From assembly GCF_002008315.2 (NCBI RefSeq), contig NZ_MVDG02000001.1:2418001-2482000 (forward strand): a stretch of 64,000 bases of DNA, written 5' to 3'. Position 1 is the stretch's first letter, and every line of letters starts with the position of its first letter. The notes under the pieces were generated by a model that was given only the letters and a program-made list of their open reading frames with translations, made no database searches and had not been told where the DNA came from. The translations under genes were made by a program, and so were the position numbers. Below, piece after piece: positions 34,786 through 60,534 of the stretch. The DNA comes from Arthrobacter sp. KBS0703. Its GTDB lineage: Bacteria; Actinomycetota; Actinomycetes; Actinomycetales; Micrococcaceae.

Positions 34786-34804
34786 CTGTCTCTTATACAC
34801 ATCT
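34786..34804. other. Tn5 mosaic end (Nextera adapter) left in the assembly
   Basis: CTGTCTCTTATACACATCT is exactly the 19-bp Tn5 hyperactive transposase mosaic end used in Nextera-type libraries. It has no transposon attached and creates a false stop (TAG) in the YibE/F gene. It is best read as an untrimmed adapter or gap-fill artefact. Sequence across it should not be trusted. Confidence 0.95.
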
Positions 34805-34805
34805 A

Positions 34806-36155
34806 GATCCGGGTTTCCCCGGCGACCGCCGCCGCAGCCGCCAGCGCTCCGGTGTCCTCGACGTCGTCGGGCGTCACGGCAGCCTGGCCGCCGGTGCGGA
34901 TGCCGGTGGCCTTGACCACGAGGACGGCGATGAGCGTGGTGACGGGAATGGCCAGCACCAGGCCGATCGATCCCACCAGGGTGCGGATGACCTCCTCGGA
35001 CAGTTCGGCGCTGGTGAGCGCCTCGCCGAGCGGGCGGTCGTAGAGCATCACGATGATGAGGACGGGCAAGGCCGCGCCGGCGTATGCGAAGGCAATGGTG
35101 TACACGGTGGAGGCGATGTGGTCCCGGCCGATCCTCATCGCGGACGTGAACAGCTTGCGGGCGCTGGTGGCCGGCGCCAGTTCGTACAGTTCCCAGACCG
35201 CCGAGGACTGCGTGATGGTGACGTCGTTCAGGACGCCAAGGCCGGAAATGATGAGCCCGCACAGGATGATGCCGGAAATGGAGATGCTGCCCGAGATATT
35301 GGTCAGCGTGGCGGCATCGTGGTTCCCCACCCCGGCGAGGTTTGCCGCGTCCGTTGCCCAGGCCGCAAGCAGCGCCGTGATGCCCAGCCCGAATATGGTT
35401 CCCAGCAGGGCGGTGGACGTCCGCGCCGAGAAACCGTGCGCGAAGTACAGGACGCCGATCATGATCACCGTGGATCCCACCAGCGCCAGCAGGAGCGGCG
35501 GCTTCCCCTCGACGAGCCCGGGCAGCATGAAGCTCACCAGCACAAAGTAGGCGCCGACGAGGCCGATCAGGGCGCGGAGTCCGCGCCAGCGCGCCACCGC
35601 CACCACCACCAGGGCGTAGAGGACAGCCAGCAGGATGATGGGCATGGTCCGGACAAAGTCCACGAAGATGTAGGCCGGCGAACCCTGGGCAGCGGACGCG
35701 CCCTGGGCGTTGGAGAGGTTGAGGTAGCGGATGTTGTCGCCAACCCGCACGCCGTGGGATTTGGCGATGTCAGGGTTGATCACCACCTTGACCGGGTTGC
35801 CGCCCTTGTCCGGCTCGGTGAAGGCGAACGTGCACTGGGAGCCGCCGCCGTCCTGGGCGCCGCCCTGGGAACCCTGTTGCGGGTTCTGCGCCGTCGCCTG
35901 GCTGCAGCCCTCCGTGACGACCCGCTGGATCCGGCCGGTGTCAAAGCTGACGCCGGGGGCAGCGGCATACGGATTGGCGAGGGTCAGGCCCTCGCGGCTG
36001 CCGGACGGCCACAGCGCCGCCATGGCTGCGAGCGTCAGCAGGGTCAGCGGAATCAGCACCGCAGCCAGAATCCTGTTTGCCTTCCGGCGGGCGGCAATCT
36101 GTTCGGCGGTTGGCTCCGAATGCCCTGTGTGACCGTGGGAGTGACCTGAACCCAT
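34806..36155 (-). CDS. YibE/F-family membrane protein, 3' end broken by adapter
   Basis: A protein of 450 residues as read. The His-rich N-terminus (GHSHGHTGHSEP) is followed by one membrane helix (about 28-48), an extracytoplasmic domain (50-165) with two cysteines, and a YibE/F domain with about seven helices (165-425). The YibE/F domain has SAVWELYELAP and AFAYAGAALPVLIIVML. Reading ends in a TAG made by the adapter at 34786-34804, so the true C-terminus is missing or displaced. Function unknown. It sits upstream of dusB. Divergent from an alpha/beta hydrolase. Confidence 0.8.
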
Positions 36156-59302: not shown

Positions 59303-59635
59303 CTACCGTACCCGCACTCCGGCACGCCACACGGCATGTGTCAGCGGCATGCCCGGACGGTAGGCCAGGTGCGTGGCCGACGGCGCGTTCAGCAGGTGCA
59401 GGTCCGCGCGGTGCCCGATGGCGATCGACCCCACCGCGCGTTCGCCGTCGACGTCGTTCCCGGACTCACGGCCGAGCGCCAGGGCGCCGCCGTACGTCGC
59501 CGCGCGGACGGCCTCGTGGACGCTCAGATGCATCTGCAGCACGGCGGTGGTGACGCAGAACGCCATGGAGCTGGTGTAGGACGTCCCGGGGTTGCAGTTG
59601 GAGGCGAGCGCGACGGCCACGCCGGCGTCCAGGAG
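59303..59635 (-). CDS. hutI: Imidazolonepropionase, C-terminal part (gene split by adapter)
   Basis: A 110-residue tail that continues hutI: LLDAGVAVALASNCNPGTSY, TSSMAFCVTTAVLQMHL, then AATYGGALALGRE and IGHRADLHLLNA, ending at 59303. It is in the correct strand and order with the N-terminal part beyond the adapter. Together they make about 397 residues plus a few lost at the junction, near the family's usual 400-410. Confidence 0.85.
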   Translation of the reverse strand, partial: LLDAGVAVALASNCNPGTSYTSSMAFCVTTAVLQMHLSVHEAVRAATYGGALALGRESGNDVDGERAVGSIAIGHRADLHLLNAPSATHLAYRPGMPLTHAVWRAGVRVR

Positions 59636-59673
59636 CTGTCTCTTATACACATCTAGATGTGTATAAGAGACAG
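59636..59673. other. Two inverted Tn5 mosaic ends (Nextera adapter) inside hutI
   Basis: CTGTCTCTTATACACATCT at 59636-59654 is followed at once by its exact reverse complement at 59655-59673, a perfect 38-bp palindrome. This is the known untrimmed Nextera junction. In translation it gives the peptides LSLIHI and VSYTHLDVYKRQ, which are familiar contaminants. It breaks the hutI frame. Confidence 0.97.
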
Positions 59674-60534
59674 CGGCTGGCGGGTGGAAAGGTCGCACGC
59701 GGGCAGGCACGTGGCCACGGTTCCCCGCCGCCCCGCGCCGGCGGCGAGATCCCAGCCGGACCAGCTCGCAGCCAACGCGTCGATGTCCTGCCCGGACAGG
59801 TAATTCACGTGGTCCACGCTCGCGGCGCCGAACTCGACGGCGAGCTGCACACCGGATCCGTGGCCCAGCTGGTTGCCGTGGACGCGCAGTCCCAGCCCGG
59901 CATCGCGGCAGGCCTGCAGCACCCGGCGGGACTGCTCCTCGGAAAAGGCGCCGCGCTCACAGAACACGTCGGCCCACGCCACGAAAGGGCGCACGGCATC
60001 CAGCATCGCGCCGCAGACGAGGGCGGTGTAGTCGTCGGCGTCCATTCCCGCGGGGACCAGGTGCGCGCCCAGATAGGTCACTTCGTCGGCCACGCCCGCG
60101 GCGATCCGGGCACTCCTGGCCTCCTGCTCCACGTCCAGGCCGTACCCCGTCTTGGTCTCCACGTAGGTGGTTCCCTGTGAGGCCGCCTCCGCCACTCGGC
60201 CCATCGCGAGCCGGGTGAGGTCGTAATCTCCGGTGCTCCGGGTGGCTCCGTTAGTGACGGCGATGCCGCCGGCGCTGTAGGTCTGCCCTGCCATCCGGGC
60301 TTCAAACTCCGCTGTCCGATCACCCGCAAAAATCAGGTGGGTGTGCGAATCGACCCAGCCGGGCAGCAGAGCCCGGCCGCCGGCGTCCACCGACTCGTCC
60401 GCGGCAGGGGCATCGGACGCCGCCCCGATCCAGGCGATCCGCTCGCCCTCGACCACCACCGCGGCATCCCGGAGGACCCGGTGTTCCTGGTCCTGTGTCA
60501 TGAGCTCGCCGATGTTGGTGATGAGGGTAGTCAT
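59674..60534 (-). CDS. hutI: Imidazolonepropionase, N-terminal part (gene split by adapter)
   Basis: 287 codons of the amidohydrolase that opens imidazolone-5-propionate to N-formimino-glutamate in histidine breakdown. Metal ligands H64 and H66 are in VDSHTHLIFAGDR. HGNQLGHGSG and SVDHVNYL give further ligands. Reading stops at the adapter after TCLPACDLSTRQP. The start is 11 bp after the FAD oxidoreductase stop, so they are co-transcribed. Other hut genes are not in view. Confidence 0.9.

Follow-up and report, generated by a model that had tools for sequence, protein, structure and literature searches.

A Tn5-derived junction adaptor, very probably left by an untrimmed mate-pair library, splits hutI in an Arthrobacter genome assembly

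The window, that is, the whole stretch of 64,000 nucleotides of Arthrobacter sp. KBS0703 that was analysed, carries at positions 59636-59673 a perfect 38-base palindrome, CTGTCTCTTATACACATCTAGATGTGTATAAGAGACAG, which equals its own reverse complement and separates two parts of the gene hutI. A second, partial copy, absent from the preliminary description, lies elsewhere in the window, beside a YibE/F-like gene. The features concerned are the following.

59674..60534, minus strand: hutI (imidazolonepropionase), 5' part, 287 codons, ending on a codon border at the adaptor; TIGR01224 positions 3-254
59636..59673, no strand assigned: Nextera Mate Pair junction adaptor, 38-base palindrome; exact match, 251 exact copies in the genome, same letters in PMC7357533
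59303..59635, minus strand: hutI, 3' part, 110 codons plus stop, starting on a codon border in another frame; TIGR01224 positions 278-375
59653..60534, minus strand: false ORF of 293 aa, hutI 5' part plus the adaptor-encoded tail LSLIHI and a stop (ORF list, adaptor frames)
59303..59710, minus strand: false ORF of 135 aa, hutI 3' part with a start that runs through the adaptor and reads VSYTHLDVYKRQ (ORF list, adaptor frames)
34786..34808, no strand assigned: second, partial adaptor, a mosaic end (34786-34804) plus four junction-like bases (23 of 38), which could be there by chance
34809..36155, minus strand: YibE/F-like gene (ORF 34803..36155; PF07907, 5.7e-74)

The two halves of hutI flank the palindrome on the same strand and in the same order, and both match the family TIGR01224 (NCBIfam) in order, although the gene is interrupted in this assembly and neither half reached the curated cut-off of 298.15 (217.6 bits for the 5' half and 69.7 bits for the 3' half). 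No match of either half reached the Pfam gathering score. The 5' half ends in STRQP and the 3' half begins with LLDAG. When the two flanks were searched separately against the loci returned for 11 of 18 same-genus relatives, 18 bases (6 codons) were net missing between the halves by comparison with all 11, in each of which the frame is open. The exchange of 18 genomic bases for 38 adaptor bases adds 20, and the frame is therefore lost. The preliminary description had hutI continuing on both sides, in the right order and out of frame, with a few residues lacking between these two motifs; the comparison bore this out and set the number of missing codons at exactly six.

The 5' half found matches in 27 of the 29 genomes searched (the own genome included) and in all 18 other same-genus genomes, with 79-86% identity; the closest named hutI, taken from the plasmid collection only, was that of Arthrobacter sp. 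StoSoilB13 (79.7%). A second intact hutI was not found in the own genome, where two other matches scored 25.4 and 24.2 bits. Taken at face value, the genome would seem to have lost imidazolonepropionase and with it a step of histidine breakdown; in the organism itself, hutI is very probably intact.

The palindrome consists of two exact copies of the 19-base Tn5 mosaic end, joined directly at their inner ends. With up to three mismatches allowed, the 19-mer had no match in any of 100 shuffles, and from base composition about 1.7e-19 exact 38-mers would be expected by chance per 4.86 Mb. The G+C content of the 38-mer is 37%, against 67% for the window. Neither a transposase nor any cargo lies between the two ends, and the sides of them that join target DNA face away from each other towards hutI, which is the arrangement that tagmentation yields. 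Two mosaic ends in a perfect 38-bp palindrome, with no transposon present, had been recognised from the start; their description as "head to head" holds for the inner ends, the target-joining ends facing outward instead.

Two joined mosaic ends are the layout of a mate-pair library. According to the NextClip paper (PMC3928519), the transposase of the Nextera Long Mate Pair protocol puts a 19-base biotinylated adaptor on both fragment ends, circularisation joins the two adaptors, and NextClip searches either for the single 19-base sequence or for the 38-base pair of forward and reverse complement. Tagmentation with biotinylated junction adapters followed by NxTrim trimming is described in PMC6298255. 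Positions 59636-59673 show this layout (19 forward plus 19 reverse complement, 38 in total), and their outward ends abut genomic DNA as in the junction adaptor that NextClip and NxTrim target. The tails of Nextera Read 1 and Read 2, as given in PMC11575248, had no exact match in 404 kb of this genome, which ruled out an ordinary Nextera read adapter. The earlier term "Nextera adapter" can thus be refined: with the tails absent and the layout that of PMC3928519, the element is not the ordinary read adapter but the Mate Pair circularisation junction. The identical 38 letters are also given in PMC7357533, for a circularising ring adapter that was attached by ligation to DNA sheared to about 4 kb; in the present case, the Tn5 preference at the junction borders (see below) argues for tagmentation. 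Judged from titles and abstract openings, which are no proof of absence in print, we recognised no report of this adaptor in finished prokaryote assemblies.

The palindrome in hutI is one of many. The genome assembly (4,860,540 bases in 37 contigs, 99.99% complete) contains 251 exact 38-mers, against none for a control pattern. With up to two mismatches, 386 + 397 = 783 mosaic ends were found genome-wide, again with none for the control, and those among the matches listed were all exact. Up to 281 of these ends lie outside full exact junctions, so that together with the 251 full junctions the adaptor density is about one site per 9 kb. In the 404 kb that we examined closely, full junctions numbered 18 and single-end forms 20. 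The 38-mer was found in the own genome only among 150 genomes of the genus, the 149 others searched being free of it, and in two of 396 sampled genomes of the phylum, the own one and another (G353) with a single copy.

The borders of the junctions were compared with those of junctions from other genomes. Over 146 distinct junctions of the latter (292 flank ends, a few of which contain N), the bases beside the adaptor were strongly biased, the enriched ones including G at position 1 (131 ends, 1.88-fold) as well as C at position 9 (116 ends, 1.66-fold); G at position 1 together with C at position 9 is the target preference of Tn5. In the own genome alone, the enrichment was 1.50-fold for G at position 1 and 1.36-fold for C at position 9, the latter not being significant. 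When the profile built from the 292 ends of other genomes was applied to 88 flank ends from 44 of the 251 own junctions, these outscored 20,000 random positions (mean -0.55 versus -1.74, p about 1e-7). Shifting the reading of these flanks outward by 1 to 40 bases gave values between -1.41 and -1.92, the signal being gone at offset 1. The own borders, over the 44 sampled junctions, thus carry the Tn5 target preference, a likeness to the Mate Pair junction adaptor that adds to its layout. At hutI itself, the left border lay at the 99.6th percentile of random positions on this profile and the right border, at the 60.5th, was not outstanding. A 9-base direct duplication across the junction was seen in none of the 44 own junctions (the two hutI borders differ) and in 1 of the 146 from other genomes.

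The 38 adaptor sites in the 404 kb were then compared with G002, the nearest relative, over a syntenic stretch. Of the full junctions, 12 lie in the first 300 kb, and for these we required that the alignment of both flanks end no more than 60 bases from the border. Eight passed this filter, with net losses of 17, 18, 19, 27, 30, 40, 41, and 907 bases, and if located in a gene six of these eight would change the frame and two would keep it. The four that failed were a doublet (two junctions sharing a loss of 144 bases), one at 15,553 bases, and one that could not be placed. The remaining 6 of the 18 full junctions were placed by one flank (one junction) or by none (five). All 11 placed full junctions keep strand and order. 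As controls, we used 300 random adaptor-free positions, of which 289 were placed and 224 passed the same filter: 202 of these stood at zero, 208 within 3 bases, 9 lost 10 to 100 bases, and 3 gained more than 10. Seven of the 12 junctions thus lose 17-41 bases, versus none lost at 202 of the 224 controls, and the flanks are therefore mostly neighbours rather than mate-pair partners kilobases apart. At most of the full junctions open to this test, the adaptor stands in place of a short stretch between true genomic neighbours.

This adjacency bears on the most direct alternative, in which a single mate-pair molecule was assembled as is, so that the flanks of the palindrome are the two ends of a circularised fragment of several kilobases. 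A molecule of this kind does carry precisely the 38-mer (PMC3928519), and one full junction, whose flanks lie 15.5 kb apart in the relative, may have arisen in this way or reflect a genuine difference. However, the strand and order kept by all placed junctions among the 18 of the 404 kb, the seven junctions whose flanks are only 17-41 bases apart in the relative, and the two halves of hutI, which are parts of a single gene separated by no more than 18 bases, all speak against it. We thus rejected it on flank adjacency versus G002 and consider it very unlikely. Since the flanks of the 251 joins are mostly adjacent where testable, the data point to merged contig ends rather than to one chimeric molecule.

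A real insertion would be a Tn5-type element, an excision scar or a linker that inactivates hutI in the organism. Tn5 / IS50 indeed uses a 19-base mosaic end, and the ends found here are those of Tn5, but the two abut each other and enclose neither transposase nor cargo, the 9-base duplication is missing from all sampled own junctions, and genomic bases have been lost, at hutI and at other junctions. The restriction of 251 palindromes to one genome, with 0/149 in the rest of the genus, and the recurrence of the same 38 letters in unrelated organisms also contradict this explanation, which was rejected as highly improbable. Finally, a native palindromic repeat family of the genus (REP-like or a miniature element) would agree with a palindrome scattered over one genome in hundreds of copies, but we rejected it as practically negligible because the 251 copies are identical and none was found in the other genus genomes searched, besides being poor in G+C relative to the window, spelled with the same letters in other phyla, and accompanied by a loss of genomic bases at the hutI site.

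The adaptor in hutI is therefore not biology but an artefact of a known kind. Our main reading, to which we give a probability of roughly 95%, is that the 38-mer in hutI is an untrimmed Nextera Mate Pair circularisation junction left in the assembly. Neighbouring contigs were probably merged on it there, with a short gap hidden. This reading agrees with the original suspicion of an assembly artefact that mimics a broken gene, now supported by the genome-wide copies, the lost bases, the Tn5 borders, and the lack of duplication. By comparison with a usual Mate Pair junction, the present one stands in a scaffold, has hundreds of copies, and joins mostly genomic neighbours (where testable) instead of fragment ends.

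The course of events may have been as follows. A Mate Pair library would have been made and assembled without prior trimming. In that protocol, the transposase cuts the genomic DNA and equips both ends of every fragment with a 19-base mosaic end; on circularisation the two form the 38-base palindrome, and reads running through it contain adaptor. Because all junction molecules share the same 38 bases, contigs would tend to stop at the 38-mer near a weakly covered spot, and contigs from both sides of that spot would end in the shared 38-mer. Contigs placed as neighbours would then have been merged on these 38 bases, with 18 genomic bases dropped at hutI. We regard this merge step as likely. Four records (the plasmid H2, the viral contigs L207 and L211, and L102 among the genome contigs), in which 0, 6, 8, or 9 bases follow the 38-mer before the sequence ends, agree with the contig-stop course, although they are picked examples; among the matches listed for genome and viral contigs, most junctions lie in the interior of the displayed stretch.

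The single-end sites are less regular. Against G002, 17 of the 20 were placed, all on the same strand, and 13 of the 17 showed a net loss of 0 to 2,486 bases. At the other four, the own sequence was longer than that of the relative (C1:2483543, 2507141, 2528919, and 2557384, by 674, 59, 2, and 36 bases, respectively), which may reflect true divergence or sequence duplicated locally by the assembly. The match to the junction was 19 bases long at 6 sites and 20 to 37 at 14. The simple merge model thus fails to predict the single-end forms in detail. In nine of the 20, the match covers 36 or 37 of the 38 bases, a pattern that the replacement of one or two bases at the border would give. At the partial adaptor of the window (34786-34808), about 9 bases are net missing by comparison with G002, with 51 and 10 adjoining bases unaligned. 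The stop codon that the assembly gives to the YibE/F-like gene overlaps this adaptor, its last codon and TAG lying at 34803-34808, and the gene on the other side is presumably a tRNA-dihydrouridine synthase.

At the observed density of adaptor sites, many of the genes called in this assembly are suspect, and a completeness score of 99.99 is blind to such joins; the value of the case lies in genome quality control and in its scale. The peptides encoded by the adaptor, LSLIHI and VSYTHLDVYKRQ, offer an easy flag for affected genes. The palindrome probably acted as a systematic joiner through which one untrimmed library introduced false joins by the hundreds, mostly with a short gap concealed, while the genome is still rated 99.99% complete; as the 38-mer is present in at least 19 other named organisms and in five plasmid records, adaptor peptides and false pseudogenes may have spread in protein databases.

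A scan of genome contigs returned at least 120 stretches with the 38-mer from at least 19 named organisms (manual count), those listed ranging from cyanobacteria and Enterococcus to Streptomyces and Rhizobium. Many copies were seen in several of the organisms listed, including Enterococcus sp. 10A9_DIV0425 and 8G7_MSG3316, Ideonella MAG2, and Scytonema tolypothrichoides. The 38-mer was also present, among the matches listed, in three records titled chromosomes (CP051244.1, CP017948.1, and NZ_CP051236.1). Phages and complete genomes of E. coli gave no match, and viral contigs gave 7 stretches. In PLSDB, it occurred in 5 plasmid records, at 14 places counting both strands: NZ_KY978628.1, NZ_CP032357.1, NZ_MT039157.1, NZ_MF589339.1, and NZ_MF918372.1. 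The two of these five that we inspected are both titled complete, and in NZ_MT039157.1 the 38-mer forms the very end of the record.
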